Positions 23,001 to 51,600 of a stretch of DNA of 64,000 bases are shown here, piece after piece. The notes under the pieces were generated by a model. It saw only the letters and a program-made list of their open reading frames with translations. It was not told the DNA's origin and did no database searches. Where the stretch lies: the NCBI RefSeq assembly GCF_026151205.1, contig NC_087075.1, positions 6,590,858 through 6,654,857 on the forward strand. The letters are read 5' to 3'. Source of the DNA: Bolinopsis microptera (lineage: Eukaryota; Ctenophora; Tentaculata; Lobata; Bolinopsidae). The first letter of the stretch is position 1; every line of letters starts with the position of its first letter. Position numbers and translations under genes: made by a program.

Positions 23001-26000
23001 AATCTTAATCCTGCGTTTGATTACTTCTACAAATCTTAAAATCAAGAAACCAGCATGAATTCTCAACTCATTTTGATTTTTCAAAATTTTGATTATTTTA
23101 AACCCATTCCTTTTTCAAGAAAGTTGCGATTTCAGATAAAAAAGCAATGTGTTAAGTGAAGGTTATATAAAGAACCGTTCAACTATCCGTTCTTGAATTT
23201 ACGGAACTTTCTCCAGAGTATTTAATTTATTTTAATTCTAATAATCACCCAGTAGCTTGTTTTAACTATGGTGCAGTATCTTAAGATAGTGAAGGATCAT
23301 GAAAGCCAAATAAGTTAGTTCAGACCAAAACAGTAAGGTAACAAAACATACCATGGGCATTGGGCATTGGGCATATAATCATATTATAAATACTGAAAAC
23401 AGTTGATCCAGACAACAATAAGGAATTTACTTACCCGTATCTGATATTTGTGGATGTAGAAATAAGAAGGTAACCATATTTGCGGATGTAAAAGTATCAA
23501 GTTAACCATATTAACGGATGTAGAATTATTGAGTTACCTAAATTTGTGTACGTTGAGACCGTTAGGAGTTATCAGGTCAGGTCTCCTCTTTAACAGATGT
23601 TCTGATTCATCTTGTGTTATTCTGAGGAATATAATTTTTAAAGTTTTGGTTTTTTTTTAAATGAATAAACGTATAAGGTTACATCATAATTTTCAATTTT
23701 CATATTCACGTAAAATTATATTGTTATGTATCATATGATTTTGTAAACATTGGCCGGTGTACCAAAAACCGGTCCCCAAACAAATATAACTTATATACGT
23801 TTTTTTTTTAACGAACAACAATCATCGTTCCTCGATCGGTCACAACCCAATAAAATTTCAGGCTCATAAGTCTCTTGACTTTATCTTGTCATTAAAAGGC
23901 TCCATTGTTTGCCCAAAATATTTGGTATATAATAGTGTTGAAAGTATTGTGTATCATTCATTATACATAAGTAAATATTTTTATTTATAAACATATGAAC
24001 ATACCAAAATACGGGTAGTCCCGAGACTGAAAGTTTAAAAATGCCATTACCTGGATACAGTAGTGAAAATATGGGCGGCATGGCAAGCTGCCATCTCCAT
24101 ACAATATCGGTGGTGAATACCCCTTCTCCTTGCTTCTCCTTCACAGTCAAACTGGAATTTGGTATGGATGTCAGACAAAAATGTGAGGAATGGACATTGT
24201 TCATTCCTCACATTGTTCATTGACAGCTTCTTGTGGATCAATGTTGAGATATTTTGTAATTAAATTAAAGCTCTCTGATTTTTTGAGAAAGTAATCATGC
24301 ACAAATAACAAACCTCAGCTTATTCATTAAGCTGTTATTAATTAATGTCATTCGCTATACATTATACATTAAGTTATACATTAAGTATTATTCTAATAAA
24401 GTACTCTTTTCTTAATCTTTACCACTAGGTTCATTCTTACTGAGCACGTATTTTTTTAATGCCAACAATTCGCTTTTAGCTAGCAGGAATTTCTAAATAA
24501 CTCCTAAAATAAGCTACACAAGTAACGCCAGGTGTGTTTACTTTCTAAGTGTTACTGATCAATAATTACATTGCAGACACCGCCATATCACACCAACACT
24601 CAACAGATCAGAGCGAGTTATCAGGAGTGGACAGGAGTGTAGGAAGACGGGGGTGTAGGAAGACGGGGGTTGTAGGAAGACGGGGGTGTAGGAAGACGGG
24701 GGTGTAGGAAGACGGGGGTTGTAGGAAGACGGGGTGTAGGAAGACGGGGAGTCTAGGAAGACGGGATTTGTAGGAAGACGGGGGTGTAGGAAGACGGGGG
24801 TGTAGGTACACGGGGGTGTAGGAACACGAGGGTGTAGGAACACGGGGGTGTAGGAACACGAGGGTGTAGGAACACGGGGGTGTAGGAACACGGGGGTGTA
24901 GGAACACGGGGGTGTAGGAACACGAGGGTGTAGGAACACGGGGGTGTAGGAACACGAGGGTGTAGGAACACGAGGGTGTAGGAACACGGGGGTGTAGGAA
25001 CACGAGGGTGTAGGAACACGGGGGTGTAGGAACACGAGGGTGTAGGAACACGAGGGTGTAGGAACACGAGGGTGCAGGAACACGGGGGCGACACCCATGG
25101 AGAGTGGGAGTGGATAAACTCATTTTCAGTGTGTACGTGACATGAACTGCTAAAGACATAGTTACACTATCTAATTAGAGTGTTATTACACTTGTACACT
25201 GGATCACTGGATGTTATAGTTCACATTACACTACTTCACTACACTACTTATATTACATTACACTAGTTTTACATCGTGCGGAAAGTTATGGAATATGGAT
25301 GTTTGGATTCAATTAATAAAACCCTTCATGCAGTCCTTCATGCTCTCTAGAAACGTTAAAACGTGTGTTTTTAACAAACCTCAAAACCGAAACATGGATA
25401 ACTATAAAATTTGGAACACCAGCATAATAAAATAAAAAATAATGTACATTATTCGCCATTTTTACAGCTAATTGAACATATAGCTAATTCATTATACAGC
25501 TAATTAATAATGCAGCTAATTAATTATACAGCTAATTTATAATGCAGCTAATTAAACATACAGCTAATTAATTATGCAGCTAATTAATTATGCATCTAAT
25601 TAAACATGCAGCTAATTAATTATACAGCTAATTAATTATGCAGCTAATCAAACATGCAGCTAATTAACATCACATTCCACCAGGATATACATACATAAGG
25701 CATGTTATTATAGAAATCCGAAGATCCAGCACACAAATAACGTCCGAGTAGAGTCGCGTGCGTCGTGAATATAGTCCCGATCTCCAGGCCTACAGGTAGT
25801 TCAATATAATAATACAATTAATATAATATTATAAATAATATAACAAAATATATAATGTAGTCCCGATCTCCAGGCCTACAGGAGTTCAATATAATAATAC
25901 AATTAATATAATAATACAAATAATATAAAAAAATATATAATGTAGTCCCGATCTCCAAGCCTACAGGAGTTCAATATAATAATACAATTAACATAATATT

Positions 26001-29000
26001 ATAAATAATATAACAAAATATATAATGTAGTCCCGATCTCCAGGCCTACAGGTAGTTCAATATAATAATACAATTAATATAATATTATAAATAATATAAC
26101 AAAATATATAATGTAGTCCCGATCTATAATCAACTTAATAACACCAGAATGTGTGTGTGTCTGTGTGTCTGTGTGTCTGTGTGTCTGTGTGTAATTTCCG
26201 AACAGTTATACAAAAAAAACGGTAATAGTTACGGGACTGGTTTTTTCGGTATAGTGCCGACAAAACTCTGATGAAGCCCATAAGAAAATTTTATAAAAAT
26301 CGGCCGGTGGTAAGTGGTTTAATTGATGATTTTGTTCCAGAAATGTGACATAAATGGATGGGAGAGAGAACGAGGAGGATAACATGTACCGTAATTAGTT
26401 TAGCCCCACGTAATATCAGAGCTCACTCTTGCGGCCGCTTTGTTTTAACTGTAGGGAGATTTCATACTTTCATAAGACAGCATTATGCGTGATATCAAAT
26501 ATATAATGCGGTTGTATACTTTTACATTGCAACTGTGACAGTAAATTCCCGGCCGAAGGCACGGGTTACACTAGTATATTAATATAGTCCCGATCTATAG
26601 CTCTACAGGAGTTCAAAAGAATAATACAAACATATTTTGTTGATTGCATTGCATATTTTATTGTAAATTTGCTACATTTAAGTTTTATGTAAAGATGTGA
26701 TGAGATGGGAAATTTTTAACTTTTCGCTTCTAAATAAAAAGCTATCATACACAGTTAAGACGATTTTTAACAGTGCCAGTTTTAGCTGAGTCATCGTAAA
26801 ACATAGACACTCCACATTTCAATATGACGAATGGTAGTTTATAAGTTTGCATATTGTTTAAGCAAACCATGATAATACCAGCGTCCCAAGTAAGTATAAA
26901 CAATGCCAAGAATTTGATGATTTGATTCAAAAGTGACGCTGCATATCAAATTTCATGTAAATGTTTCTTTTAGCTGATAAATTTGCCAAAAATTAAGCCC
27001 ATGTCTAGATGGTTCATATGTGTTACAGTTTTTCAAGCTGCAGCTTATGATGAGATTAAAACCAAGGTTCCAGCCCGTCGGTTTAGAATCAAATTTTAGG
27101 AGGGGTGAGTTTGTGAAGTAATATGTAGAGTGCAAATGTCTATCATAATTCATAAAGTGCAAATGTCTATGTTTAAAATTGAGTGCAAATGACTATGTTT
27201 GAGTGCAAATTTCTATTGTCTATGATATATAGACTGTTTAACTTTAAGGCTCATCGTTCAGCCACTGATAATAATCGGTAACGTATATTGAATACTTGGT
27301 TAACATTCAGCCACATTCTGCACAAATAGTATCACAACCACCACATAATTGAGTTTTAAGCTATAATTCCCAATTTAAGCATCAAAACTTCGGTATTTTC
27401 CTAAAAATAGTTCATCAAAAGGTGACCGTGAAACAATACTCCCTAAAAATATACTTTACCTCTAGTTCTAGTGAGGATACAGCCAACCCCCGCCTGCCAC
27501 TCGTGAAAGTGAGCTACCGTCCTTTTACTGGAGTTCCTGGAGCTGAACTGAGAAGTTGGCAGGTTATTTATTAAATAGATACTTTAGTTTCTTTACATAT
27601 ATTTTATCTAACGAACTAAAGTGCTCAAAAGAATATCTCCACTTTATAATACAAATAGTTGCGGTAAAAGGGGCGATGCTGCTTAACAAGTTACGAGACA
27701 AAAACGAAAATAACATTTTGAAATAATTTTAATTCAGCACACACTTTACTTAAGTAATAGGTTAATAGGTTAATAGGTTAATAGGTTAATAGGTTAATAG
27801 GTTAATAGGTTAATAGGTTAATAGGTTAATAGGTTAATAGGTTAATATGTTAATAGGTTAATAGGTTAATAGGTTAATAGGTTAATAGGTTAATAGGTTA
27901 ATAAATTAGGTGAGCTGCTTATTCAGTTATTCGACTAAAATATAGTAAACTAGAAACCTGCTAGTCGAAAGCTTTGTTCGAGGAAATTTAAAAAATAATT
28001 TATGTTTAAATTTCTCTAATCTCTAATCATCTAGCTCTAAGCTCTGTACTGTAGAAAGTGTGGATTTTATTTCACATTGACGACAAAGATGTAAGTATCC
28101 AGATTCCCTAAACGATACTTTCTACCGCATCGAAAAATATCAATGACAACCAAAGTTATGAATAGTGATATCGTGAGCGTAAATGTGAGCTAGTTATGAC
28201 GTATCACGTATCAGAATAAAGCATGGCAACACGCGTTAATTATAGAAAATCTAAAGCCTTAATCAAAATTCTAAGAATGCTATCTCCTTTTCCTATCCTT
28301 TTTTACAACCCAGCTAAAAATTGCGAGGTTTTAACTCCATTTTCGAGCTGAAATTGGCCTCACCATAGGGTCAATTTTGGTCTATTTTCAGTGGTTTTTT
28401 GTCCCCGTTGCCGGGGGATTTCGTCAAGTTTAAAATATAATATAGATATATACCAGTTGAACACTGTACATCAAGGTTGGCTTCAAAAGGTGCAAACATA
28501 CTATACAGAGATATCACCATAATTGTTTTGCCATATTCTGATTTCAATTTATTTTCAGAGATAAAACATTTTGATATCACGTGACAGTTTATATCGTCGT
28601 AGTATGCCCGTTATCGTGTCACCTACCCGTGTTGTAACCTGACAGATTGTACTGATAAGACATACCTTTCATTAAGTTAACAAAGGAAAATGGGATCAAC
28701 TAAATACAGGCTAATTTCCATTTTCTTATCTCTCCTTATCTTGTTTCTCCTTATTTTAGACGAGATGAGTTTTAAGGATTTTGTAAATTTGTGATAGTTT
28801 AAATTGAGTTATTTTCGAGATGTTCGAGCTTTTCTTTAGAATTAAAACAAGCCATATGTTATGGCATGCAAGGGCGAGGTATGAATAACTTTTTTCTAAC
28901 GTGTTATAACAGTGTGAAAATCGCAACAACGAATTAATATTTGTTATCACTGGTCTGTCAAGCTAATAAGGACCACATGTAACAGTAAAATTAACTGGCA

Positions 29001-31288
29001 GAATGCCAGGAATGTGTGAAGTGGAAAACTGGACAATTGCCAGGAATGAGGCACATACCTCCCCCAGGAACCAGGTAACCAGCTCTCCGAACACAACTGC
29101 GTTTACTGTCTCTTTGTCCGAGTCCGGAATACTAATGTGGGACACATTCCAGAAATCCTTCATCCACTCGTCACGTCTGTGGGAACGTTTATCATGTTAT
29201 TTTTCAGCGTATTGTTTGGCAAGTTGCCACAAATGGGATTTTCTGATTGTCGCTAATAATCGCTTATTCAGGGGTTACAAGCCGATTCTCTTGAAACTAC
29301 AGTTTACACTGTTTATAAACGCTTACAAACCGCTTGTGAATGGTTTTTAAATAGTCGATTATAATTTGTAGGAACGATTATCATATTATGTTTACAAGGT
29401 CATTGTTTATCTCAACTAAAAGGTAAGTTCACATTCCATTGACAACTTAAATCAGTAGCTCGAGTATTGAAACATGTTTCTATCATCACCATATCAAACT
29501 ATTTTTATCAAACTATTTTCATAACTACAAATAGATATATTTATTGAGGACGATAAAGAATTAAGGAATATTTCAATATTATATTATGTGATGTAGCACA
29601 ATATTATATTATGTGGTCATCCTCGCGTACTAAAGAAAGTGGCAATTCTCTTGTATTTAATACTTTAATATAAATAGATTATTTATCTGTAAAGATAACC
29701 CGGAATAGTCATACGTTGCAACCTCTTGCTCCCTGGCGTAGTCAAGTCTAACATAATATATTTATTTACTTACATATATTAACATGACATTAAACTAATG
29801 TTTATCTAATTTCGGTGAGACAACAGTAATTATATATAGCGAACACAACATAATGCATAATATACATTCGCTATTCAAGCACCTTAGCCAATGTAACTGA
29901 ATTAAGGTCTCGGGCCATTTAGGCCATTAGTTCATTGCTGAGACTAGGCCTTTATGTTGGCCAGATATAACATACTATAATATAACAACTACTACCTTGT
30001 TATGAGCGTCAGAATGTAGCGGTGGAGTTTAATTGAGAAGAATTGAGACACCTACATTTATTGTACTCAGAGGGCTTAAGAAGCTTAATGCTTATACAGT
30101 GGACTTAATTGTATACGGTAGATCTGTTTATAATATACGATGATTTCACGACGCTGGGTTTATTTATTGCAATAATTAATCGAGCGAGTTTGTTTTCTAA
30201 ACCTTACAGATTAAGCAGAGAAAATTTAGTGACCAAATATTTGAGTACAGACAAAAATAAGTATTGTGACATGATCAAGAGTTTGGTTTACCTCTTCCAG
30301 GAGCTGCCTAAGTCAAAAAGAATAACCCATGGATTACCAGCAATAAGCCACCTCCCTGTAACGACCTGACAAGATTTGATAAAGGTAAAAGTACAACAGA
30401 GAGGATCCTCATAGATATACATTATACAGTAAGTAATGACGAAGTATCGTTTTAAGGCTACAATTTAGGATATTAACAAAATAAAGATAACAGATTCAGG
30501 ATACGAAATGAAGATAACAGATGATTACTTACCCTAACAGGATACGAAATGAAGATAACAGATGATTATTTACCCTAACAGGATACGAAATGAAGATAAC
30601 AGATAATTACTTACCCTAACAGGATACGAAATGAAGATAACAGATAATTACTTACCCTAACACCTCTATCTCTCATAGCCTCTACAGCAGCTCTAATATA
30701 ATAATCATCTGGCTCTACTATCTCCACCTCTGTACGCATCTTCTCCTCGACATAGGGTCCTAAAATAGAGGCATTAGACAGGGGTTTGTATCCACATTTC
30801 TGGAGACTGTAACAAAATTAACTTCAATTAATGAGTTGAATTTACTGTATATAATTGGTTTTATATTATATGTGGTTAATGGTAGGGTAATGGTATAATA
30901 AATATATATTATAGTTTTATGATCTAGTTCAAGTGACTAATGAATACTGAATAGGTACATGTCTTTATTTACATGTCTTTATTTAAATCATATAGCTCAC
31001 CAAGTAGAAAGTAGTTATCACCAAGCTCAGCTACGGTAACAGCAGCCTTGCTTCTGATCACGGTGTTGATTCCGCCAACTGAAATTAAAGATACAGCATG
31101 TTAGTCAAGTTCAAACAACAGGAACTACAAGACCTACACTGTAATTATATGATCTCAATATGCACAAAAAACTGTGTTGAAAGTATTGTTGACCTTTGTT
31201 GCACACCTCCCAAGACACTTCAAAAGTGTATCTGTCATCATCTGGACTATTTCTCATTCTATTGCTGGACCCAGTAAGCATTGCTATG
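8047..31288 (-). CDS. GYS: Glycogen synthase (GYS1/GYS2 family), 18 exons
   Basis: Cytosolic enzyme that transfers glucose from UDP-glucose to growing glycogen (GT3 family). Exons in transcript order: 31288-31194, 31078-31001, 30759-30656, 30365-30292, 29176-29059, 27547-27460, 25789-25695, 24151-24051, 23621-23538, 21230-21102, 13774-13677, 13442-13304, 13200-13011, 12856-12712, 9476-9313, 8701-8624, 8500-8387, 8172-8047. All junctions are AG/GT with matching phases. Counting from the ATG at 31281 gives 671 residues with no internal stop. Visible landmarks: KVGG near residue 29 (UDP-glucose loop), [37 protein letters not shown], the catalytic E-x7-E pair in EPWGYTPAE (about 498 and 506), the arginine-rich regulatory helix [17 protein letters not shown] (about 567-583), and the GSK3-type ladder [17 protein letters not shown] near 640-655. 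The C-terminal tail beyond 8047 is unresolved, and an upstream 5' exon may exist. Confidence 0.96.
8965..9060. repeat. Tandem repeat built from GGGGTGACACGTGGGC-like units
   Basis: About three units of roughly 31 bp containing GTGGGATGACACG and GGGGTGACACGTGGG lie in a glycogen synthase intron. The units carry CACGTG cores. Confidence 0.8.
9480..10930. other. Intronic stretch with little structure
   Basis: Part of the long glycogen synthase intron 9477-12711. A duplication of about 28 bp (GGGGGTCTATAATATGGGAC twice) lies at about 10322-10375. No exon, RNA gene or transposon is recognised otherwise. Confidence 0.5.
11018..12434 (+). CDS. Unknown two-exon gene nested in a glycogen synthase intron, opposite strand
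   Basis: Exon 1 (11018-11481) and exon 2 (12047-12434) join across TCAG|GTGATC and TTTTTAG|CGAG in one frame (phase 2), giving 283 residues ending in TGA. The first ATG in the frame, at 11018, is taken as the start; the frame is open further upstream without an ATG. The protein is hydrophilic and probably largely disordered. It has a basic N-terminus ([15 protein letters not shown]), a Thr/Asn/Pro-rich middle, the repeated motif [15 protein letters not shown], an aromatic block ([14 protein letters not shown]), and a more structured-looking C-terminus ([19 protein letters not shown]). No signal peptide or membrane segment is seen. No family was recognised. It lies wholly inside the intron 9477-12711 of glycogen synthase. 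A 163-bp palindrome sits in its own intron. Confidence 0.7.
11501..11664. mobile_element. Short palindromic element (MITE-like)
   Basis: Arms 11501-11559 and 11611-11664 are inverted copies (GTACATACAT at each outer end, TTACACAGTGTAA inside). A near-identical 12-bp direct repeat AGAGCATGTTGT flanks it at about 11491 and 11674 and could be a target duplication. It lies in the intron of the nested gene. Confidence 0.7.
13775..15960. other. Intron of glycogen synthase, nothing recognised
   Basis: First part of the 7.3-kb intron 13775-21101. No supported exon, RNA gene or tandem array is seen. Confidence 0.5.
15966..16454 (-). CDS. Candidate secreted protein, single exon, nested in a glycogen synthase intron
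   Basis: A 162-residue ATG-to-stop frame. Residues 1-20 form a hydrophobic signal-peptide-like start ([17 protein letters not shown]). Residues about 33-50 are four near-perfect GSQP repeats encoded by a 12-bp minisatellite. The rest has six cysteines ([26 protein letters not shown]) spread over 110 residues, and ends in CSEE. This suggests a small extracellular protein, but no family was recognised. It lies in the same orientation as the host gene, inside the intron 13775-21101. The stop codon lies within an AATAAA signal (15965-15970), so the 3' UTR would be very short. It could also be a chance frame. Confidence 0.5.
   Translation of the reverse strand: MSHLLRIITVAVSLVIITQQTTLKILSTPNNTGSQPGSQPGSQPGSQPGSGCREPTICSGVSLHSDPIHPIYCWWDSSFYRGRVGKRVDMSGCGFISTAVVTTTSRTLNGESTGSCPGLFTSHVTVSSFNVYSVEELSEEEIGEIMCDVHWIATGYSACSEE
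17428..17540. repeat. Inverted repeat with CCCCAAAATA tandem units
   Basis: The left arm (AGCTGGGGGAAGCCAAGGGG) and right arm (CCCCTTGGCTTCCCCCCAAGCT region) are complementary. The right side also carries four CCCCAAAATA repeats, so the complementary strand has runs of G4 that could form a quadruplex. It is probably a small MITE. Confidence 0.75.
18150..18875. repeat. Minisatellite of CCAGGTTACCTCCTGAC and CCAGGTAA units
   Basis: About 725 bp of tandem units. A longer unit (GGTTACCTCCTGACTGTAAC) alternates with short AACCAGGT runs that expand at 18570-18650 and 18780-18875. It lies in a glycogen synthase intron. Confidence 0.95.
19705..19842. repeat. Ten-bp tandem array, TAGTTGACAA
   Basis: About 13 units with few variants (TAGTTGCTAA, TAGTTGCCAA). 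Intronic. Open frames across it are products of the repeat. Confidence 0.95.
19960..21100. other. Intron of glycogen synthase, nothing recognised
   Basis: No supported gene. An AT dinucleotide run lies at about 20583-20602. Confidence 0.5.
21335..21681 (+). pseudogene. 3' tail fragment of the RLE-type LINE
   Basis: Matches the 3' tail of the element at 50275-52762 from AAGGCCTGCATGAAGAT through TTATGCTTGTAGG to the end near ACAACACTCC-like sequence. A small TATAATATA insertion separates it from the other copies. It lies in a glycogen synthase intron, inserted opposite to the gene. Confidence 0.8.
21690..23440. other. Intron of glycogen synthase, nothing recognised
   Basis: AT-rich intron sequence. 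The short motif GATATTGAGTAA is repeated three times near 22110-22145. No other feature was found. Confidence 0.5.
23445..23540 (-). repeat. Three 32-bp tandem units starting exactly at a splice donor
   Basis: Read on the gene strand, the exon ending at 23538 is followed by three 32-bp units (23540-23509, 23508-23477, 23476-23445). Unit 1 starts with TAGGTAACTC and includes the real GTAACT donor. Units 2 and 3 start with TGGTTAAC and TGGTTACC at the equivalent place. All three share TACATCC. Confidence 0.8.
24625..25090. repeat. Minisatellite of 16-bp units, GGTGTAGGAACACGAG-like
   Basis: About 29 units in two variants: GTGTAGGAAGACGGGG at the left and GTGTAGGAACACGAGG or GTGTAGGAACACGGGG at the right. 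It lies in the glycogen synthase intron between exons 24051-24151 and 25695-25789. Long frames across it on the minus strand ([15 protein letters not shown]-like) are repeat artefacts. Confidence 0.95.
25475..25672. repeat. Tandem array of CAGCTAATTAATTATG units
   Basis: About 12 diverged units of roughly 16-17 bp lie immediately downstream (in transcript sense) of the exon 25695-25789. Confidence 0.85.
25773..26125 (-). repeat. 85/86-bp tandem array copying a 3' splice site
   Basis: Units start near 25773, 25859, 25944, 26029 and (cut short) 26115. The first contains the real 5' end of the glycogen synthase exon (25789) with its CTGTAG|GC acceptor. The next three carry the same exon start and acceptor (AGTCCCGATCTCCAGGCCTA on the plus strand) followed by AT-rich intron sequence. 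A stray diverged copy is at about 26584-26610. Confidence 0.9.
26142..26192. repeat. TGTGTGTC microsatellite
   Basis: Simple repeat of GTGTGTCT. Nothing else is recognised to 27459 except the stray repeat unit at 26584. Confidence 0.9.
27746..27905. repeat. Eight-bp tandem array, TTAATAGG
   Basis: About 19 near-perfect units of TTAATAGG lie in the glycogen synthase intron between exons 27460-27547 and 29059-29176. Confidence 0.95.
30480..30660 (-). repeat. 41-bp tandem array copying a 5' splice site four times
   Basis: On the gene strand the real donor is TTAGG|GTAAGT with exon end 30656. Equivalent junctions recur at exact 41-bp steps: 30615 (GTAAGT), 30574 (GTAAAT) and 30533 (GTAAGT). Each is preceded by the same last exon bases TGTTAGG. 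The array ends in a partial unit near 30485. Confidence 0.95.
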
Positions 31289-31599
31289 CTGAAAAATCAA
31301 GCAACTTTAATAAATAATTAATATTATTAATAAAATATTATTAATAAAAAATTGATTAATTTCCTTGTTACTACAGCTTTAATCAGAACTGAAAAACTCT
31401 TGATAGAACATCCGGTTGAAATTACAACCTACAGAATTGCAATAGTTTTTTATATGTAATAAAAGTTATATTATATTATGCTAAAACTGTACAAAACTGT
31501 ACAAAATAGTCCCAAAACTGTATAGGACTCTCGAAACTATAATTGTATTCACAAACAGCTAATACAAATTTAAAATAAACTGACTGAGGGCTCATCTCC

Positions 31600-31990
31600 T
31601 TCATTTTCGTTTTTTTGTGGGCACCAACTCTACCTCAATACCTAAGTAAGGATGTTACATCCACTGCACTAAAGGGGCTTACATATAATGGGGTCCCTCT
31701 GCAGTGCAGGATTGAGCTTACACCTGAACTATGTTCTAAGCCGACTAGGCCTAGTGGGCAGCAAATGGTGTTTGCCATGTTGCCATGGAGGATGTCACCC
31801 AGACATGCAACCACAGAATTATGGTATGTCTGGAATGAAACGATTATCTTCTGGATTAAACGATCTTCATAAAGCTTTTCTTCCTGAGAGAGTTAAACCT
31901 TATTGAAATGCCCTACCAAGTACCAGTGGATGTAAAGAACTCTAGTGTAAATGATTTTAAGATAAATCTAGAATATTTTAGAAGAATTGT
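31600..31990 (+). pseudogene. Degenerate LINE 3' end
   Basis: Broken frames include RVKPYWNALP and, after a shift, VDVKNSSVNDFKINLEYFR. This is the pattern at the C-terminus of many CR1/jockey-like LINE polymerases (FFSxRVVxxWNxLP...SVNxFKxxLD). Only a short, shifted remnant remains. Confidence 0.5.
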
Positions 31991-32634
31991 ATCTTAAAAG
32001 GAATTGCTTGTGGTCATTATCATTGAAAAGTTTCTAACCTGGTGATAGGTAGAATCAAATTACAACTCTGAGTCTTAATTATTTATAGAGCAAGAGTAAC
32101 AATGATGATTATCTGTGGTCTCATCCATATTTAGCAAAGAAGAAGTTCATTAATTTAAACTATGGCTGTTGAGTCTAATTAGAAATATCTGATATATGAG
32201 ATTTATGGATTTATGTTAAAATATTTTTGTAAACATGTTTTATAATTTTTGTATCATTATGGTTATGTTTTGATTTTATTTTTGACATACTTTTTGGTAA
32301 TATTGGATTCCGATGGTTAAAACGTAAAATCAATTACCTGGCTTAATAATATAAATGGTTTATTTTGTATGCTGTATGATGTAGTCATATTTGGCTAAAT
32401 GATAATTTGTTGTGTATTTGAGGAAATATATTTCAAACAATATACAGATAATTTCAGCAATGGTAATTAGGGTAGACACCCTCGAAAAATGAATAAACCA
32501 ATATAATAGATTAAATGCTATAAAAATGGTACATATTCACATCGCAACAAAAAGCTTTGAAGACTTGATTTTAGACTTTTATTTTGCTTCCCAGAGCTGA
32601 GCAACGATCTGAAAGAGTTGTAGTTTTACAACCT

Positions 32635-33825: not shown

Positions 33826-33829
33826 TATA

Positions 33830-36682: not shown

Positions 36683-39600
36683 GACGACCTTGTTGTTCTG
36701 CACAACATCATTCTACAGCAGCAGGATGAGATAAATGCACTAAAGAAACATGTTTCCTTCCTCCTTGATGACCTTCAAGTTTGCGAACTCAACAAAAAAG
36801 GTAGGTGGAAAAATTCTGTTCCTGATGCATTGCCAATCGGCCTGATCATTAAGTTTTGTATGCTGTAGTGCACACATTTAAAAGAAACATGTTAATTTTG
36901 GTTGATTTTTCTTTTGTGGTTAGCTTACTTTGAACTTAATTACTGTAGCTAACAGCTTCTTCTTTTCAGGGGCTGCTTATAACGAAAAGGCAATAATAGA
37001 ACTAAGTAAGTCTCTAAGTTTTGTGATTTGTTTTTGTGACTGCTGTTGTTTTAATTAAATCGTAATCTTGTATGTATATAAATCAGTGATTTAGGATTTA
37101 AATATTTTTAATCACTGTGTAAACTCAAAAATTCAGAGTTGGAAGTAGAGAAACTTAGGAGAGAAAAGGCAAAGTTAAAGTTAGAAAAAGAGGGAACATA
37201 CATAAACCCTGGACAAAGAAAGGTACCTACATTCTAACTTAAAATTCTTGATGTGATGAAATTTACCAAGCTCAGTAAATATCGATAAGATGTATTCATT
37301 ACTTTCCAGTTTCCAAGCGACCTTTTAAATAGTTAAATAAATAAACAGATACAACCTTTACGCGAACAAACAATAATTACTTCTAGTAACTATTTAGTAA
37401 CTTTATTATTAACGATTAAGTAACATTATCCATCAATCTGGCACTAACACAAATATAGATCACACCTACCACCCAGTACACGTCCCAGCAGTCTCTAATG
37501 TCTAGTACCAAGCCAGTAACACCCAGCATTAGGACCAGTCCTCATTTAGTGGAGAGAAGAAATACTGGCGGTAACAGAGACGTCACTAAGGTTAGGGAGA
37601 GTTCTCTTTTTATCTGTTTTTCAACTCTCTTTTTATCTGTTTTATCTGTTTAAATGCTATTTAATTTGTTTCGTATTAATCAGCACCTTGGTGGCTGACT
37701 GTTTTCAGTTTTGTCAATGTATTTAATTACCCTCAACAACAGGTGAAGACGTTAGATGACCGCGACATGAGAAATTTTATAAACCCTGCATCCCCTACCG
37801 GCACACTGAACAGAGCAGCCACGTTGCAACGCCCCCCCACCAGCAACACTCCTGTCAGTAACGCTACCAGCACTCCCAACTCTCTTCAAATTAGACAGAG
37901 AAACAAGGGTAAGTAGTGCTACTTCCAACTCTCTAGTCTACAGCAGAATAGACAGAGAAACAAGGGTAAGTAGTGCTACTTCCAACTCTCTAGTCTACAG
38001 CAGAATAGACACAGAAATAAGTAACGGTACTAGCACTTCCAATTCTCTACAGAGTTCATAAGAGGAGCCACACTAACGTTGGACAGACCCAGGAAAATGA
38101 GTAATATAGCCACGGGTAATATGGGTAAGCTGTATTTTTGCTCCTCTTAGACATAACTTTCTTTGTTTCTTCCTCTACAGATAGGTAACTATTCGTCAGA
38201 CAGCCTGGTGCCTGGTAAGGAGTGATATATTGTTAAGGCATTATTTCCAGCTTTGTGTGATATTCGTGCAGCTTTCCAAAGCCATATTAGAATTAAGAAA
38301 CCGTTGAGCGTGAACATTTGGTACACCATATTCACTGGTCAAGTTTGCAAGGTTACTTTACTATAATAAAACATGTCGTCACACATATTGACTGCAATTG
38401 TAAAATATTAAGTGACAGCGCAGGCACGGTTTTCCCAGCTATCTCAACCAACACAGTCTAGTTAAGGAATCTCACTTTCACGTAAGGCTTTGAAAAACAG
38501 TGCCATGTCCAATGTCCATCCGGATTCCGGATGGACATGCGCTCACCTATCAGAATGACACAGCAAAGGATTTATCCTATGCTTTGTCATGATAGGTGAG
38601 CGTGTGCTAGAGTTATACTAGTAGATTTCAAAGCCTTACATATGAAGACTGTAAGATTTTTAGTACGTGAGATCACACCTGTGATCTGAGCGGAGTTTAC
38701 AACACTCCTAAACACGGTAAATAAGAGTGAAGGTTGTAAAACTGATAAGTAGTAGATTCTAGAACTTGCACCTTCATTTGGTAGTGCTGTTTGACAGTGT
38801 TTTAATTTATCATTAATTTTAAATTATCATATCTTTCATAACGATCACATGGATATACAAACTTGGTATTTTTTGCACTTGGTTGATTCTTTACCCCCAC
38901 TAAGGTATTTTGGCTGTATTTTAATGTTTTCAATCTAGGTTGATATTTAATACGTGTTGTGCCCTACATCTCTAATTTTACCCGTTATACCGTGTCAGAT
39001 CTTCACTCTTAAAAGTAATGTTTTTAGTGCGAGAGTACCTACGAGTGCTTGTTCAGGCTTCCCGTTCGGCTAACGTTAATATTTATCGACATCGTGTATT
39101 TTGCGCTCTCTTGTAGTAGCTTTTACCGCAGAAAGCTCTGATTAATTATAAATATAACTTAACGTTTTTTTGTACGTTCCTTTTTTAGAGTTTCTGCTTT
39201 CAGAAATCAATCTCAGTGTGCTGCGCTCCACATTATCAGCCTTAAATTAGTAACACGTTGTAAGTTGTAACGACAAACGATACATTGGAGCATATCACTC
39301 TGCTACTAGAGTAATTGAAGCACCTCATTTGGTTTCACTTTCTTTAGAAATCACTCGTTAGATCTTTAGTCGTGAAATACTAACACGTTACTCCACTGTA
39401 GGGTTGTTTGCGTCAATGAGCCGCGCAATGCACAAAGTCAGACGTAACCGGGGCAACAAGAAGTCAATATCAGACCCTAACCTATCAGCTCTGGAGACTG
39501 GATCAGAGTTCAGTAAGGATGGTACCCTCCGGGGCAGCTGGTTGAAGAATATATTCGGGACTAATACTGTTCGTTATGGGTAAGTTTTAATTAGCTTGCT

Positions 39601-42600
39601 CAAGCTGACTCATTATCATCTAATTATCATCTAATTATCATCTCAGTCATTTTGTTATATTTATAAAAGTTTCCCAGATTCAATCTTGCAAATATAAATC
39701 AACTGAGACGTTTGTCAGATTATAAATGACTCTGATAATCCTAACTATAATATCACGTACTTGTACAGGAGAACACCCTCAACGGACGGATCAAGACAAG
39801 GGGACTACACATTACTACAGTTAGATAAATCACGTACCATGTACCCGTGTATGCTGGGTATTAATACTCTCGAGGAAGTCGTCACCGCTGAGTAAGAACT
39901 ATTTTTGTTTTTTTCTAGATGTTTCTAGAATTTTCTGAAAGCCTTATCCATTTATTATCGATATTTAGCTCGAGTTTTATCAGCTAGTAATATCATTTAG
40001 TAGTTATTTTATGTGTGGAAAAATTATGTTTCTGAAATTACCACTTAAAAATTACCACTATTTAAATTAAGCTCTGATCTTTTTCAGTGGTCACCTGATC
40101 ATTAAAGTTATGTTTGGTTTGCTGGATTATATTTAGGCAGATCATGGATCTAAGAATTTATAACCCGTACATTTCAGAGATTTACAAGAAGTCGACTTTG
40201 CCAACTGGGAAACGTGGAAATTACACCAATGGATGGACACTCAAGGTAAGTAATATTATATAAATTAGTATTAACTTTACGACCATACAAAAACAATCTA
40301 TTTATAGAACAAATCTGGATTAATATTGGTGTTTGGAAGTAATTCTCATCTGCTGTCAATACGTCGCAAATAAATAGTAAAGTAGCAACAAATATAGTAC
40401 TAAATCAGTAGTAGTAGCTCTGTAACCTCTGAACTCTGAAGCCAACTAATTCAGTATTTTATGCTAATAATAATAATAATAATAAATTGAAGTTTATTAA
40501 CACCACTATTAAGATAAAACACTAATTAATCTATTAATAGTATAGTAATACCTTCACACCTCACCAGGTTTGGGGATATTCGGACAGAAGTTGCCAGCAG
40601 GTTGGACGGGTGCCAACATACTGAAACTGGACATAGCAGGACTGGAGCAGTTGGGTATCAAACACCCACTTCACGTCAAGAAACTTGTTCTTGCTTTAAG
40701 GGTAATTAATAAATTAATTCAAGGTTACTATTCAGTATTCATGGTTGTACTATGTAATGATATTATATAATATAATACATTAAAGTAGCTGCGTAGAACT
40801 AGAAAGTGAAAAAGGCTTCAAAGCTATTCATGTTACTTCTAAATTTAAACATTCCAGTTATTGACATTTACACAATACTTACACCCCCCGGCCCCCTTAC
40901 ACAATACTGATCCAGTTACTCAATACTGACCCAATACTTACACAATACTGACCCAACACTGCCCCAGAACGCCGGCCAAGAAGACACGCCTGGCAGTCTA
41001 CACTGTGACACGTGGGTGCTACCCTGGTTAACTGAGATAGGGTTACCCCAACATGTTCCTGCTTTCAGAGAGGCTATGGTCGACGGTTAGTTTTACTTAT
41101 CAGCTAGTTAATTAACTCATTAGTTGTTACTTAATTAATTTATTAGCTCTACTTAATTAATTAACTCATTAGCTACTTCTTTAACTAGATATTGCTGTCA
41201 GCTGTGTGGTGTTGTTGAGTCTTGATAATGTGCCCACGTATACAGAAAGGCGACAGATCGGCGGATAATCTGCGAGGAAATTTTTGATTTTGGAGAAAAT
41301 TTGGTGCCAAAAAGGAAATTTTTAGAAGAAGACCTGACCTAATTTTTAGGGTTAAGACAATTTTTAGGGGGGAAACATTGAACATTGGACAGCGAGGAAA
41401 TTTAAAACTTTCTGTATGTGGGATAATGTGACCGTTTGTAGTAAAGAATTTAGCGTTTCCGTGTAGAATAAAAATAGTGGTCTAGTTTATGAGTTATGAC
41501 ACTAGTTGTTACGTTACGACGTAATACTCACACTCTAAAAAAAGTGAAATTATTAAAACTTGTCTTGTTACTTTAAAAACTTTATGATAGCATGAATGAC
41601 TTTATTGTCTCAGTGTGAGTGACGTTCAATAACGTAACAACTATTTCTAGTCATTATCAATCATTTTAATTGGTCTAAACAAACCAGAAATTTTACTTGA
41701 AACGTTTTAGATTTGATGAATAACCGAACTACGGAATTAAATAACTTAAATATTTTCTTGAGAGGTCTAGATGGTAATGACTTGTTGAAACATATAAAGC
41801 AGCAATACTCAGTTAACTATTTCTTTGGAATGAATTTATTGCATATATACACAAGTAGAACATTAGTAAGTTAGCAAGTCTGATAATTTAAAGTTATAAA
41901 GTATGAACACACAGTTTTGAATACCGAAACTTTCCAACTTTTTATGAATTCAATTCAGTAACTGTAATTAATTTAATTAATTAATTAATTAAATGTTCAG
42001 GGCGAGTGTTGAACTGGTTGACGTATGAAGATTTAAGAGTTCTAAAAGTGAGACTGAGACTACACGCTGTCAGCATTATGAGGGCTATAGAACTTCTTAG
42101 GTCAGTGATTTAATATTTCTCTTTCACTTTCACTCTTGTAAATGCTAGCTTTGGTATTTTATAGGTTTTCGGATTTCACGTCCAATGAATTAAACTAGTA
42201 TTAACTGATTCATCTAAATATTAAAATGTATTATTGTTGATGATAATTGATATTATAGCGTTTTGAAAGCCGAGAATGACAAAAAATAACCCTGTCCAAT
42301 GGGATTGAACACACTAAATTCTCTTCCAATTTACAATTATTTCACTAAATAAACTTTTTCAGGGAGTGTAATTTCGACCCAAACTACCTGAACAGTTCCC
42401 GTATCGACAACACAACCCGCCCAGCAGAGGTCATGTACTGGACCCACCAGAATGTGAAACAGTGGCTGAGTTCTAATTACTTTGCGGAGTACACGCCCGC
42501 TCTGAAGGAGTCAGGGATACACGGAGCACTGATTGTGAGTATTGTTGTACACAGTGACTACACAGTCACTATACAGTGACTACACAGTCACTACACAGTC

Positions 42601-45600
42601 ACTACACAGTCACTACACAGTCACTACACAGTCACTACACAGTCACTACACAGTCACTACACAGTCACTACACAGTCACTACACAGTCACTACACACTAC
42701 ACAGTCACTACACAGTCACTACACAGTCACTACACAGTCACTACAGCTACACAGTCACTACACAGTCACTACACAGTCACTACACAGTCACTACACAGTC
42801 ACTACACAGTCACTACACAGTGACTACACAGTCACTACACAGTTACTACACAGTGACTACACAGTCACTACACAGTCACTACACAGTCACTACACAGTCA
42901 CTACACAGTCACTACACAGTCACTACAGCTACACAGTCACTACAGAGTCACTACACAGTCACTACACAGTCACTACACAGTCACTACACAGTCACTACAC
43001 AGTGACTACACAGTGACTACACAGTCACTACACTGTCACTACACAGTCACTACACAGTCACTACACAGTCACTACACAGTCACTAGTACACAGTCACTAC
43101 ACAGTCACTACACAGTCACTACACAGTCACTACACAGTCACTACACAGTGACTACTATACACAGTGACTACTATACACAGTGACTACACAGTGACTATAC
43201 AGTGACTACACAGTGACTACACAGTCACTACACAGTCACTACACAGTCACTACATAGTGACTACACAGTAACTACACAGTGACTACTATACACAGTGACT
43301 ACACAGTCACTACACGGTGACTACACTGCCACTACACATGTTATTTAGTGTGAAACTTGATTAGTTTGATGGTTGGTGACGAAGTGAGTAGGGCCTGTCG
43401 TGATATCATGGATCGCTTAGGTTCCACCAGGATCTGGTAGTCCTCATAATTCTGCGGCCTCTATGTATCGTCATCTCGTACAACTCTTTAAGAATCTTAG
43501 GGATTTGGCATGTGAAAATTTGCAGCCTTCCAGACATTGATTGGGTTAACGAGGTGTCGTACGTCACCTCAAGATCGGGTGACAGGGGGCTGACCAGGCC
43601 AGAACCCAATTGATTGGGTCTGAGGTCACGTGATTATGAGCCTGAGGTCACGTGACTATGACGTCACCAGACCTTGTTCTCCGTTTCCCGCTCATTGGAC
43701 CAGGTGAGCTTGCATGCTTGTGAATGTGGGTGTAAGTACAGCTGTACTGTAGTTTATACCTAATTAACCCCTATAGAAACCGAAAAATTATTTTCTGGCA
43801 GAAAGCTAGAAATTTACCAAAATATCGACATTGTTATAAATTTATTTTGATGACCATTCCTGACCTAAAATTGCACGAGAAATCGATTAAACTTGGTTTC
43901 AGGACTCAACAATGCTTCTTTATGCCTTAAAATCCATGTTTTATCGATACAATCAACATTATGATCCCGTTGATTAATTAGTAACAGGTACCTAACAAAT
44001 ACGCAGAAACAACCATCACACCAACATTGCATTCCTAACGGGTCGATTTCGAGTGACCAATAATCGTCGTGATGATACGTCATGTGTTCCTGATCATCAA
44101 CAGCAATCAAGAGACAGGAGCGGCGGTAGCTTTAAATCAATGGTTTACGTTATTTTTGTGAATTCGAATACTTCACATCATTATTCCTATTTAATATTTA
44201 TAACCGCTGCATACCAAGTATTTCATGTTCATTTCATGTATTCGTAACATTATCACGAATTTTGACATAAATATAATATTGTAACTACATTGAACAGTTA
44301 TCTTTGCCTAAAAAGAGCAGTTCCCCGTCCTTTTTACAGATTCATAATAACAATATTACGACGCATAAATAAATTTACTGTCCGGAAATTACTTAAATAT
44401 AGAATGGGAGTGAGTATTACAAACCTCGGGTCAGTTAACGAGTAATAAAAGTTTCCAAGGACCGTGAATCAGTAGAATAAGCATCAGTAGAATAAGGGGG
44501 GGGGGGGTGTCACGTCCGTCTATGTCCGCTTGTCTCATAGAATCCAAAAAGGACAGGACATAGGCGGACATAGGCGGACATAGGCAGACATAGGCGGACA
44601 TAGGCGGACATTAATGGACACCTAAATTGCTAAATAAAATGTTCAATTTTTGCTGTTATAGGGGGGATCATGTTTTTTGTCCGTTCGGTACCCTATATTT
44701 TCAAAACGGACAAAAAATAGAGCGGACAAAAACGGACAAAAATGGACAAAAACGGACAAAAATGGAAATAACATTCAGATGCTTCCTCCTCCTACTCTTC
44801 CTCCTCCTCCCCCTGGGTCTTCCTGATCTTCCTCAGTCCTCTTCCTCCTCCCCTCCTCAGTCCTCCTCCTACTCCTCCTCCTCGTCCTCAGTCCTCCTCA
44901 TCAGTCCTCAACAGTCCTTCTCCTCACCATGTCCTCCTCCTCCTCCTGAGTCCTCCTCCTGGGTCCTCCTCCTGGGTCCTCCTCCTCCTCCTCAGTGCTT
45001 CTCCTCCTCAGTCCTCTTCCTCCTCTTCCTCCTCCTCCTCCCTCTCAGTCATCCTCCTCAGCCATCCTCCTCAGCCATCCTCCTCAGTCCTCCTCCTTCT
45101 CAGTCTTCCTCAGTCCTCCTCCTGAGTCCTCCTCCTCCTCAGTCATCCTCCTCAGTTCTCCTCCTCCTCCTCCTAGGTCCTCCTTCTGGGTCCTCCTCCT
45201 CCTGGGTCTTCCTGATCCTTCTCCTCCTTCTCAGTCATCCTCCTCAGTCATCCTCCTCAGTCATCCTCCTCAGCCATCCTCCTCAGCCATCCTCCTCAGT
45301 CATCCTCCTCAGTACTCTTCAGTACTCTTCAGTCCTCAAAATGTTTGTCCGCTAATGTCCACCAATGTCCGCTAATGTCCACCAATGTCCATCCAAGTCC
45401 GCCAATGTTCGTCCGGGTCCGCCAATGTCCGTCCGAGTCCGCCAATGTCCGTCCGAGTCCGCCAATGTCCGTCCGAGTCCGCCAATGTCCGTCCGAGTCC
45501 GCCAATGTCCGTCCGTGTCCGCCAATGTCCCAAAAAACACGTCCGTTGTCTCATAGAATCCAAAAAGGACAGGACATAGGCGGACATAGACGGACATGAC

Positions 45601-48600
45601 ACCCCCCCTCCCCCCCCCCCCCCCCCCCCCCAATAAGCATTTTTAGTCATTGGTCATGCAACTTGAACGTGAGTAATTATAGAAAGTGTTTTATTTACAT
45701 AGTAGATATAAATGATCAAAACTCAAAATTGGTTAGACAACTTTGCATGTAGTTAAAATGTAATTTTCAGGGTTGACAAGCTTGAAAATTATTGTGTTCG
45801 ATTAACCGTTCAAAGGTTGATAAGTGTGATTAAATTTTATAAAATTCCGATATACTTCGGCGTTTAAAAAAATTCCGAATCTTATGGAAGTAAGAATTTC
45901 CAATGTGTCTTATCGAAAGTGAGTGAAAGAAACACTTGTGGCAATTTTATTTACTGATACTCTTATTTGTAAAGCTATCCTCGATACATATGCAATAACC
46001 ATTGATTTAAAAGTTTAAAGCTGCCGCCGCTCCTGTCTCTTGATTGCTGATGATGATCAGGAACACATGACGTATCATCACGACGATTATTGGTCACTCG
46101 AAATCGACCCGTTAGGAATGCAATTTAGGTGTGATGGTTGTTTCTGCGTATTTGTTAGGTACCTGTTACTAATTAATCAACGGGATCATAATGTTGATTG
46201 TATCGATAAAACATGGATTTTAAGGCATAAAGAAGCATTGTTGAGTCCTGAAACCAAGTTTAATCGATTTCTCGTGCAATTTTAGGTCAGGAATGGTCAT
46301 CAAAATAAATTTATAACAATGTCGATATTTTGGTAAATTTCTAGCTTTCTGCCAGAAAATAAATTTTCGGTTTCTATAGGGGTTAATTAGGTATAAACTA
46401 CAGTACAGCTGTACTTACACCCACATTCACAAGCATGCAAGCTCACCTGGTCCAATGAGCGGGAAACGGAGAACAAGGTCTGGTGACGTCATAGTCACGT
46501 GACCTCAGGCTCATAATCACGTGACCTCAGACCCAATCAATTGGGTTCTGGCCTGGTCAGCCCCCTGTCACCCGATCTTGAGGTGACGTACGACACCTCG
46601 TTAACCCAATCAATGTCTGGAAGGCTGCAAATTTTCACATGCCAAATCCCTAAGATTCTTAAAGAGTTGTACGAGATGACGATACATAGAGGCCGCAGAA
46701 TTATGAGGACTACCAGATCCTGGTGGAACCTAAGCGATCCATGATATCACGACAGGCCCTACGAAGTGAGAGTATCCACTCAGTGTTTCAAAACAATTAG
46801 TTGTCGACGTTTCGGCAACACGCCTTTGTCATAGACAGGACACATTTAAGAAATTTAAATAGGTCCTAATAGTGTGAACATAATTTGGATCGCGGTTTTT
46901 TACTGTTATCAGATAACTGCAGTACAGTGCTGATAACTACAATTACCAGTTCTAAGAAGGGAATAACTTCCAGCTTTGTCTTATAAAAGTTAGCTCTGTG
47001 CTCTGTGCAGTTAATCATGATATAAATAACATAGTCAGTTCAGTACACTATGCCTTGAACTTAAGGCCACAGGGGGGGGTCGAGGCCTCAAAAAATGCAA
47101 AAAAACATTATGCTTTGAATCAATATATATTTTTGTGGTGGATACTTTGCCACCACTCATTTGTCTGTAGCTATTTTACTTTTTTTTATAAATGAGGTTA
47201 ACCAATTCTCATTTAACCTCATTTTTTTGATAAATCGATAATGGAGGGCAGAAATATTGATGCCATTACAACTAAAAACTACGATAAGCTTTGTTTTTAT
47301 TGTTTTTGTGTTATTTCAGCAGTTAAACTTTGAAAAATATACAAATAAAGGCAAAATTCTCAAAAATCACATAACATAAAAAACAGTTTTTTGCCACTCC
47401 TGAAAACCTCGAATTTTTGACTTCAAAATCTATCTTCTCCTAGAGTTTTTATCCATTTCACCTCAAATTTGGAACTTATGTTCCTGACATAAATTTAAAA
47501 GTTTGTTATGTAACGATTGTTGTAATTTTGCTCCTAACTCTTTTTATGAGGTTAACCATTTTAAATTTTGTAACCCGCACTCATGGTTAACCTCATATCT
47601 CAGCTTTGGAGCAAGATATCATAAATCGTTACATAACAAAAACTCAAAATACCTTGAAGAACATTGTTGCCAAGTTACAAGGTTCTAAGTCATAAACTGA
47701 AAAAGAAGATAGATTTTGAACACGATTTCATTTAAAGTTTTCATTTACAATAGAATTACAGGTAAACCTCAAAATTCAACGCGCGATATCTTCAAATAGG
47801 AAACTTTGTTTTCGGTAAGGACAAAAGCATTTGAAAATTTAGATCGAGCTCTACAACATATCTCAAAATCTCAAAATCGACCTCGGACCCCCCCCTGTGG
47901 CCTTAAACCTGATGTTGTCATATACCTATCCTAGAGCTTACACTAAACAATCCTCTGTCTGATTGATTTGTTCCTGGTTCTTAGTTCCAACTAACATGAT
48001 AAAGACCACCAAGTTCCGTTCTCGTGTGTCGATCTTATCTGGACACTGTTTTTCTCTTGCAGTTGATTGTTTTGTCAAGTTTTGTGTCAAACGCGGGATC
48101 TAAACTGAAGGCTTTTACTTTAATAGTTGATTGTTTTGTGTGATGATGTTTCTCAGAGGCCATAAAACCTGCCCGAATGTCACCAGCAAAGTGTCACACC
48201 CTCCCTAAAGCACACGAGCGCGCTCTGTAACTTTAAACTTTACTCCCTATCACAGAACTTTAAAACTATTAAACATTTCAACAGTGGGGGGTGTCTAATA
48301 GCAGTGGGGAGGCTGCTGCTGGGTGGGTTAGTTTGACAGACGTGTAGTGGCTTCTGAGATGCGGGTCATGTGACATGAAATGCAGGTGTCACTTGTAAGG
48401 CTTGACAGACACGTCTTCAATGTGTGACATCTATTCTGGGATTTTCTGAGTAGTAGTTACATTAAAAATTTTAGCAGAATCTGCCAACTTGTGATTGGTT
48501 GGCTGGGTTTTATCTCGAGCTTATAGTATGATGATATGATGTTTTAAACAATTACTTCATAGGATTAGGTGAAATTCCGACACATAGTCCACTGTCACTG

Positions 48601-51600
48601 ATGAATGAGTTTAACCTGTGTCTGCAAAGTTCTACATTACAGCACTTTTACTTTTATTATTCATATCAGCTTGAAAATGTGGGAAATTTAACATTAGTTA
48701 AATTAAAACGCTACTCTGTATATCATAATTATTGTTGTATCAGCGTAATATTATTTATAATAAGTTATAACTCTATGATTTAACTATTACACTAGAAACT
48801 TAAAAGAAACCTTACATAGTGTAATGATTAAAGCCTAACGTGTAAAATGACCTGATGATGCAACCCGATGCAGTTTCTTGGTTTTTCTGTGTAAATAGAG
48901 TCTGTTACAATGTCAAATCCTCTTTTTTTGCAGCCATATTAAAATAGTATACAAATAAGTTGGTACATTGGACTCAAAACAGTTGAAAACCACACCTGGC
49001 ATTTTTTACCCTTTATCGGTAAATATAAATTTACCGTTTATCTCGGAAAAGATTATGTCTGTTGAAATCACAAATTTTGCACATCTACTGAATTAACACA
49101 CCATGTGACCCTTTACTCCTTTATAAATGTTTGCTATTTCAGATAAAAGAACCTCTGATAACGTCAGCATTCCTTCTGAAGCTCCTAAAAATACCCCATT
49201 CTGAAGTGACCGGGCAAATGTTCGAGACTATATTTAACAAACTTGTTGGACCACACGTCTTATTGGAGAAGAGATTAGCTGAAACGGACAAAAATGTGAA
49301 ACCTCTATCTACTCAGACTAAACTTTCGAAGGTAGGGCATCTAATATAGGTGTTATTTCATATTTGGTGCGTAGAAATTCTCCAAAATTTGCACAAATTG
49401 TCATTTTTATCTTAAGAAAAAACGTAGTAAAATGTTGAGACAATTGCCTGCGTTCCGTAGAATCCGCTGACGGCTGATTTGGAGATATTTTCTTGTGCAT
49501 CTACTCAGATTAAACTTTCGAAAGCAAGGCATCTATTTGTTATTTCAAATTTGGCGCATAGAAATTCGCCAAAATTTGCACATATCGTCAACATTACAGA
49601 GTTTATGAATCCGAGATTTTGGAAACATTTTGGAAACATAAGACAGAATTGAGACAAAAGTGAGACAAGGCTTTTGCAGCCGTATTTATGCTAGTTCTGA
49701 CTTGGAATCTATCTGATATGGTAAAGGGACACATTTACTAACATTTCCAGCCACTTAGAAGTGCAAAATATTCATTTTGTGTTCATTTCGTTCATTTCGT
49801 TCATTTCGTTCATTCCATGAACCAATATGGCTACAAAAGCGTGGTTCCAAATTTGTCTCAAATGTTTCCACGATCTCAACTACTCTGAAACCAAAATGGA
49901 AACATTGCCCCAGAAGCCCAGAGCCCTTTCTGAACATGATAGGCTCACCAAACTTCCCAGGGACACTCCTGGTATATAAACCGATCGATTCCAATCGGTT
50001 TTAGCTCAATTCAGGGGAGTGAAAAGAAAATGTTCATTTTGTGTTCATTTCATTCATTCCATCAATCAGAGAATATTTCACAGTAGGCTGAAAATAGTAC
50101 ACATGCCCCTCTATCATACCAGGGCAAATCCCGCTTAGTTCACGGACATATACAGCCAGAAAACATGTATCAGAAATTGTCTCAAATGTTTCCAAAATCT
50201 AGGATTCATCCTCTGACAATTGACATTACAGCCATTTTATCACCTTAGATAACCTAAGTTAGAAGCAAATCTTGGGAGTGTTATAAAGTTGTTGTAATCT
50301 ATAAGTGTATATTAACCTACAAGCATAACTGCTTGGCGTGAAGAGGTACATCTTTGATTGGTCGAAGTTCTTTCAACAACACAGCATCATCACTTTCATA
50401 GTAGTCCCCGGCTTATGACGGGTTCATAGCGGTATTAAACATGTTTTTCTGGGCCCAAACATTCTACGCTCCTACTATGCTATTACTGGTCTCTTGACTA
50501 ACTCCCAATCATCTGTCCATATGGTATTGTTTCTGGACAAATAGATGGTATACGATGCCCTCAGTCTGATCTCAGGGGGGTGATGCAACGTCAATTAATG
50601 TCAGTATTCCATAAAAACCCCAAACTGACATTGACATTAATTGACATTAATTGACATTAATTGACATTAATTGACATTAATTGACATTAATTGACATTAA
50701 TTGACATTAATTTGTCTTGAAATTTGAGATTATCATTATTTGATAAATATTCAAGATATTCACGTCTATGTAAGTTAGACCGGTTCAAAAAAACAAAATG
50801 TCCTTGAATAATTATGAGTATGTTCTTATCTGTTGATCATTAGGTTCAAAGACCACCAAAAAAATTTCAGCTTCCAACTCTTCCGTCTTCGGTCCCCACC
50901 GACCACGCCCATATTTTATTGGTTTCTTATTATACAGGTAAAATATCTAGAATCGGCTTTTTTAGTATGAAGGAGTAATGTTAGCTGTTTAAGATTCGTT
51001 ATTCAAATATAAATGTCATGAAGGCATTTCGTTTAATGTGGGTTTTAAGTTCTGATGATGTTGAGAACCACGCCCTTGGATGGCCACGCCCATTTAAGAA
51101 AATTAAATTTCGGAAAACCGTATTATTTTAGTTTTATCGTTTAATGATCTGAATTTTTTTCACATTTCACATTTCCATATGTGATAGTCAGTGGCGTAAC
51201 TTTGCCTGTTGGCGCCCCCCGCTCAGTGACGAAAAGCGCCCCTCTAAAATTTTTTGTCCCTAAAAAAAAAAAAGGTCGGGTACTTTTTTTCTCGCCCCCC
51301 TACAGCTTTTTGCGCCTCCTGAAGCCAAAAAGGGTACCCCAAATAATTTTTTCGCGTCGACCGAACGCTAAATTGGACAGGGAAATACACAAACAAGGCG
51401 TTTTTTCAGTGAAAGGGCCTAAAATTCAGGAAAATTGCGCCCCCCTTATACGGCGCCCCCCCCCCCCCCCCCCCCCCCGCACAGCGGGGTCTGCGGGGCC
51501 CTAAGTTACGCCATTGGTGATAGTAGTGAATAAATTGATGATATAAACGTTCTAAAGTGCTAAAAATATGGTAGAACTACATAATCTCTGGTCGAAAAAT

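Follow-up and report, generated by a model that had tools for sequence, protein, structure and literature searches.

Tandem repeats straddling exon-intron borders in two genes of the ctenophore Bolinopsis microptera and in introns elsewhere in its genome

In Bolinopsis microptera, several tandem repeats cross the borders between exons and introns of two genes on opposite strands, and the question raised by this locus is whether splice junctions are places where repeats preferentially arise or places where repeats that can arise anywhere do no harm. The stretch analysed, referred to here as the window, covers 64,000 nucleotides (C4:6590858-6654857), and genome-wide motif counts were taken over the 264.65-Mb assembly of 232 contigs. 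The introns of two genes were mapped in the window:

8500..31281, minus strand: glycogen synthase gene, 16 introns mapped, with exon-by-exon matches to PF05693
36683..49331, plus strand: gene with SAM domains, which we take to be liprin-beta-like, 14 introns mapped

For the plus-strand gene, a profile search gave a SAM_1 match with an E value of 5e-23. Since the spliced frames of both genes contain no stops, the junctions of the window are well founded. The count of about 36 certain exons given by the sequence-only reading that raised the question is corrected here to 30 mapped introns, or 60 junctions. The repeats at these junctions are as follows:

23444..23544, minus strand: 32-bp array of diverged donor-junction copies, donor at 23537 (TRF and offset scan)
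25768..26125, minus strand: 85/86-bp array across an acceptor junction, first exon base 25789
30497..30662, minus strand: 41-bp array, four copies, at a glycogen synthase donor junction (TRF and offset scan)
37855..38051, plus strand: 57-bp array across the liprin-like donor at 37909 (TRF and offset scan)
49307..49590, plus strand: two-copy duplication, 192 bp apart (49307-49403 and 49499-49590)

The first intron base at the 41-bp array is 30655, and its unit consists of 7 exon nucleotides followed by 34 intron bases. The copies of the 32-bp array share 7 exon nucleotides and have an identity of 78%, and no downstream copy in that array matched at least 14 of 20 donor-context bases, while the copies of the 85-bp array have 22 exon nucleotides in common. 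In the 192-bp duplication, the donor at 49332 lies inside the first copy, and the GT is missing from the second; the duplication is absent from the TRF listing of the window, and its alignment score was 132, compared with 43 for the best of 500 shuffles. Of the five junction arrays originally described, those of 32, 41, 57 and 85 bp thus hold, but the 192-bp case is better described as a diverged two-copy duplication, yet one that spans a junction. The presence of junction-spanning repeats in both the minus-strand and the plus-strand gene was confirmed. By the offset scan described below, 4 of 30 arrays detected in the window span a junction against 1.67 expected (P = 0.03), a comparison made in the same region that prompted the hypothesis. 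At 40913-40966 of the window, and likewise at L051 903-1019 and L043 6146-8384 among the sampled loci, an array edge lies within 1-2 nt of a mapped splice site with no exon sequence inside.

One explanation for such arrangements is the arrival at junctions of mobile elements, or of dispersed satellites, with motifs that resemble splice sites. A dispersed repeat does lie inside the 85-bp array:

26129..26584, no strand assigned: dispersed repeat of about 457 bp

At least 40 other near full-length copies of this repeat were scored among the matches listed. It is flanked on both sides by the same 15 bases (26114-26128 and 26585-26599), which suggests that the 85-bp array predates the insertion. 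Part of the 192-bp duplication also matches dispersed repeats, and a 32-bp satellite unit bearing the donor-like motif AGGTAAGT is shared by C1:36576-37703 and C1:761375-762150, the one flank read, that of the C1:36576 array, giving no coding evidence. Against this explanation, the units hold the host gene's own coding end and donor, which contradicts it for arrays of this kind. Among the matches listed, moreover, none other was found for the exonic segment of the 192-bp duplication, and of those to the 85-bp region one of some length extends 55 nt back into the array. The exon-bearing parts of these two cases are therefore not dispersed in the manner of introner-like elements, again among the matches listed, and landed elements appear extremely unlikely as the source of the junction arrays.

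A comparison beyond the window was made in genes chosen by family and blind to repeats, namely kinesin, myosin and CCT chaperonin genes (sample 1) and dynein together with three kinase loci (sample 2). In total, 56 loci were fetched, a part of the available genes chosen according to the number and closeness of exon matches and not by repeats, and 157 introns were inferred from exon matches and splice signals, with at least one intron in 49 of the 56 loci. The splice-site scores were at first too strict, giving 80 introns, and a refit on the 30 introns of the window gave 114. When applied to the glycogen synthase hits, the caller, trained on those same introns, returned 14 introns, all 14 exact. 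In sample 1, 114 of 155 adjacent exon pairs were kept (a profile gap removed 28, and 13 lacked an acceptable splice pair); in sample 2, 43 of 63 were kept (3 and 17 dropped, respectively). A myosin match that represents one exon in a second copy (C3:9154255-9154485) was excluded from the input. The loci are not all independent, because L010 and L011, as well as L018 and L019, are recent paralogs and L016 and L017 are pieces of one gene. Local direct duplications were detected by an offset scan (offsets of 8-600, at least 20 of 24 bases matching, simple repeats removed), and an array was considered spanning when at least 5 bases lay on each side of the junction. The chance of spanning was taken as 2(u-9)/(L0+u-1), in which u stands for the unit and L0 for the intron after reduction of its array to a single unit. 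One shuffle per locus, across all loci, gave no arrays in introns, and in 12 loci 16 clusters were found in the real sequence versus 1 in the shuffled one.

Under these definitions, junctions were spanned by 8 of 42 arrays in sample 1 against 2.81 expected (P = 0.0028) and by 0 of 15 in sample 2 against 1.24 expected; at a threshold of at least 19 of 24 matching bases, sample 2 gave 2 of 23 against 1.71. In both samples together, the 57 local arrays include 8 that span a junction, where 4.05 would be expected (P = 0.031), and the P value of this combined excess ranged from 0.007 to 0.076 across ten settings. When at least 12 exon nucleotides were required, 7 of 57 were spanning against 2.86 expected. 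The offset scan before a better choice of period had given 8 of 42 against 2.8 in sample 1 and 4 of 30 against 1.54 in the window. A BLAST self-comparison with a cruder null (7 of 26 against 8.89 expected in sample 1, 2 of 10 against 1.65 in the window) was replaced by the offset scan; it missed short periods, the smallest period that it reported being 86 bp. Six of the sampled spanning arrays lie at donors and two at acceptors. With no more than 6 exon nucleotides shared, a 13-bp array in L007 could be a product of chance; it has no downstream copy by the measure used for the 32-bp array.

All eight spanning arrays lie in kinesin loci, so that the excess in the samples cannot be called general, even if other genes hold single cases. 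In a split made post hoc, with the result already known, kinesin genes had 8 of 25 arrays spanning against 1.71 expected (P = 4e-5), and the other sampled families had 0 of 32 against 2.35 expected. The original claim that a chance link between repeats and junctions is unlikely is thus supported by the combined count but weakened by its confinement to one gene family. Recurrence outside the window was itself borne out, since junction-spanning arrays were found in independent introns and the donor-motif count described below points the same way. The accompanying premise that repeats make up a minor part of the introns did not survive: in the sample of 157 introns, local arrays occupy 19,918 of the 99,981 bases (20%), so that some association with junctions is to be expected. 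Measured in bases, array coverage is higher in intron interiors than at junctions, and the excess is one of array number relative to size.

These figures give considerable weight to the simplest alternative, in which duplication strikes anywhere and the spanning arrays just happened to fall where they did, harmlessly and with no preference for junctions. It accords with the share of intron sequence held in arrays, with an overall excess of about two-fold that is absent outside the kinesins, and with the lack of excess in sample 1 by BLAST self-comparison; the kinesin count and the genome-wide recurrence of the donor motif are set against it. We regard this purely geometric account as a serious contender, somewhat short of an even chance. 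The sampled kinesin genes and the motif count do show an excess beyond geometry, and it could reflect a lasting exon template, a mutational hotspot, a kinesin-specific factor or chance in a small sample.

Genome-wide, triples of AGGTAAGT at 26-56 bp spacing gave 1426 matches versus 12 for the motif read backwards, with triple matches inside one array not being independent, and the motif taken singly gave 10,764 versus 7,968. Triples of the dinucleotide-matched AAGTAGGT numbered 610, with 0 backwards. Among the matches listed, the donor-motif matches correspond to seven arrays in C1:0-14.1 Mb and the AAGTAGGT matches to ten arrays in C1, C2 and C3 up to 20.2 Mb, which makes AGGTAAGT arrays about three to four times as dense, far less than the ratio of raw matches. 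The flanks of six of the seven donor-motif arrays were read, and four of the seven, among the matches listed, lie at exon ends with coding evidence. Apart from C1:36576, the flanks read were:

C1:428574: donor-motif array, Sushi match, E 0.002, below the curated cut-off
C1:885268: donor-motif array, open frame at the flank, presumably dynein-like
C1:3114174: donor-motif array, flank read, not among the four with coding evidence
C1:4181600: donor-motif array, open exon between a good acceptor and donor
C1:14124721: donor-motif array, reprolysin match, E 0.0006, below the cut-off

For the acceptor motif TTTTCAGG, 369 triples were found versus 90 backwards, forming four arrays among the matches listed, and a large TTTTCAGG array in C3 ends at an open exon. 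At C1:1164786-1174568, AGGTAAGT recurs at a spacing of about 1,034 bp, a pattern that would fit tandemly arrayed genes or repeats.

The predominance of donors over acceptors, both in the six-to-two split of the samples and in the triple counts of the two motifs, is what would be expected if donors break or slip more readily, for example through transcription-linked structures, and arrays start there. However, selection would give the same bias: surplus donors fall downstream of the one in use, but surplus acceptors come ahead of the working acceptor and compete with it, which could also explain the smaller number of acceptor arrays. A mutational hotspot of this kind seems rather unlikely.

In the most extended arrays, the inner splice sites are preserved to a striking degree. 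In a kinesin intron of L014, about 26 exon-end nucleotides together with GTAAGT are followed by 51 downstream copies over about 1.7 kb; GT is kept in all 51, and 49 of 51 have scores that exceed the real donor's or fall at most 0.5 below it. The kinesin intron of L016 has a 35-bp unit with 24 downstream copies, and L015 a 53-bp unit with 7; in both, every copy retains GT (24/24 and 7/7) and scores within 0.5 or better (24/24 and 7/7). In an acceptor array of L009, AG is present in 23 of 23 upstream copies. In L014, L016, L059 and L062 the intronic part of the unit measures about 4-10 nt, barely more than the donor hexamer, and in L063 the sequence directly upstream of a donor array contains two in-frame copies of a coding stretch of about 50 residues.

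Intact inner donors in L014, L015 and L016 might indicate that they are in use, in regulated alternative or unproductive splicing. Seven donor arrays (L009, L014, L015, L016, L020 and the 41-bp and 57-bp arrays) were tested for stops in the extended exon or in the first 60 bases of the next exon, and all 88 of their downstream donors would bring a stop if used, 59 of them with a frameshift, so that use could only lower output. Copies have also decayed in the 32-bp and 192-bp cases, and functional use of inner donors is accordingly judged very improbable. Since every downstream donor tested would lead to a stop, the working protein apparently needs the gene-side (first) donor, and splicing would be expected to use it. 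The earlier proposal of either a junction-favouring mechanism or repeats kept harmless is upheld in its second half by these stops; a mutational preference for junctions was not borne out.

Ordinary tandem duplication with subsequent array growth, tolerated at donors if the 5'-most site is used, probably accounts for what is seen, together with a local excess. As the sequence shows, short segments straddling the exon-intron border, mostly at the 5' splice site, were tandemly duplicated and grew into intron arrays. The gene-side copy would remain the working splice site, and the inner copies, which would serve as intron filler, often still carry exon ends and intact splice signals. Inner donors may be tolerated if splicing picks the 5'-most donor. 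If the outermost splice site stays in use, a border-crossing duplication would be silent, and array survival would then need no junction preference. For the excess, the cause that we prefer is that the exon copy, under selection for the protein, may act as a lasting template that re-seeds copies, while intron-internal arrays decay.

In a stronger version, donors of this lineage preferentially seed arrays, and among as many as 52 nearly identical donors in a row the spliceosome dependably chooses the 5'-most; this version is entertained only tentatively and is on balance doubtful. Among closely spaced identical donors, mammalian extracts show a preference for the downstream one. If exon-seeded growth were true, the rule of donor choice would be unlike this preference, such introns would be ready-made experiments on the choice among dozens of near-identical neighbours, and one concrete route of intron lengthening would be at hand. 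Gene models in such genomes may misplace exon ends by one or more units.

Related arrangements have been reported in other organisms. In human segmental-duplication genes, the available portion of one source describes internal tandem repeats at exon-intron boundaries with units of about 30 bp on average (PMC2812944). Both there and here, minisatellite units lie at exon-intron borders and alter introns, and a minisatellite unit across such a border was found in four arrays of the window and eight of the samples. The human cases, as far as that portion goes, concern recent paralogs in which the repeats have about four copies and many also persist in transcripts, whereas the present ones concern conserved single genes with up to 51 downstream copies. 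A second precedent is intron gain by tandem duplication (PMC4974935; PMC2891723). In the accessible part of PMC2891723, a duplicated segment crossing or lying within an exon supplies the splice sites, and the liprin-like intron with the 57-bp array appears similar. In this 144-bp intron (37909-38052), three stretches align with the upstream exon end with scores of 51, 41 and 44, each reached by 0 of 500 shuffles; its donor, body and acceptor all look exon-derived, as in an intron derived from its flanking exon. Compared with that source, most cases here extend an existing intron by many copies, with no new intron made. In Lipomyces, the part of PMC7138796 that is available proposes donor duplication of 4-7 nt in stwintron formation as a route to nested introns. 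The donor of an existing intron is tandemly duplicated in both systems, but the donor units here are about 32-57 nt, contain exon sequence and form arrays. Among ctenophores, tandem repeats are given as 13% of the Hormiphora genome in the accessible text of PMC8527503. A literature search without most subscription journals found no report of such long donor arrays or of ctenophore junction arrays, which is a weak absence.

Other rearrangements were observed in the same material. The paralogs L010/L011 and L018/L019, which are not junction-array loci, show one insertion difference each, and the paralogs L030/L031, also not junction-array loci, differ at several places; an insertion at about 1040-1972 of L010, missing from L011, has inverted ends with short tandem repeats inside. 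In the window, near-identical open frames of 107 aa form an inverted pair at 5498-5821 and 7118-7441, and an open frame at 2221-3087 resembles, by eye, what is presumably a reverse transcriptase. At 43620-46530, in a liprin-like intron, inverted near-identical open frames (43865-44131 on the minus strand and 46019-46285 on the plus strand) are accompanied by short repeats outside and satellites between them, and the whole looks like one large inverted-end element.
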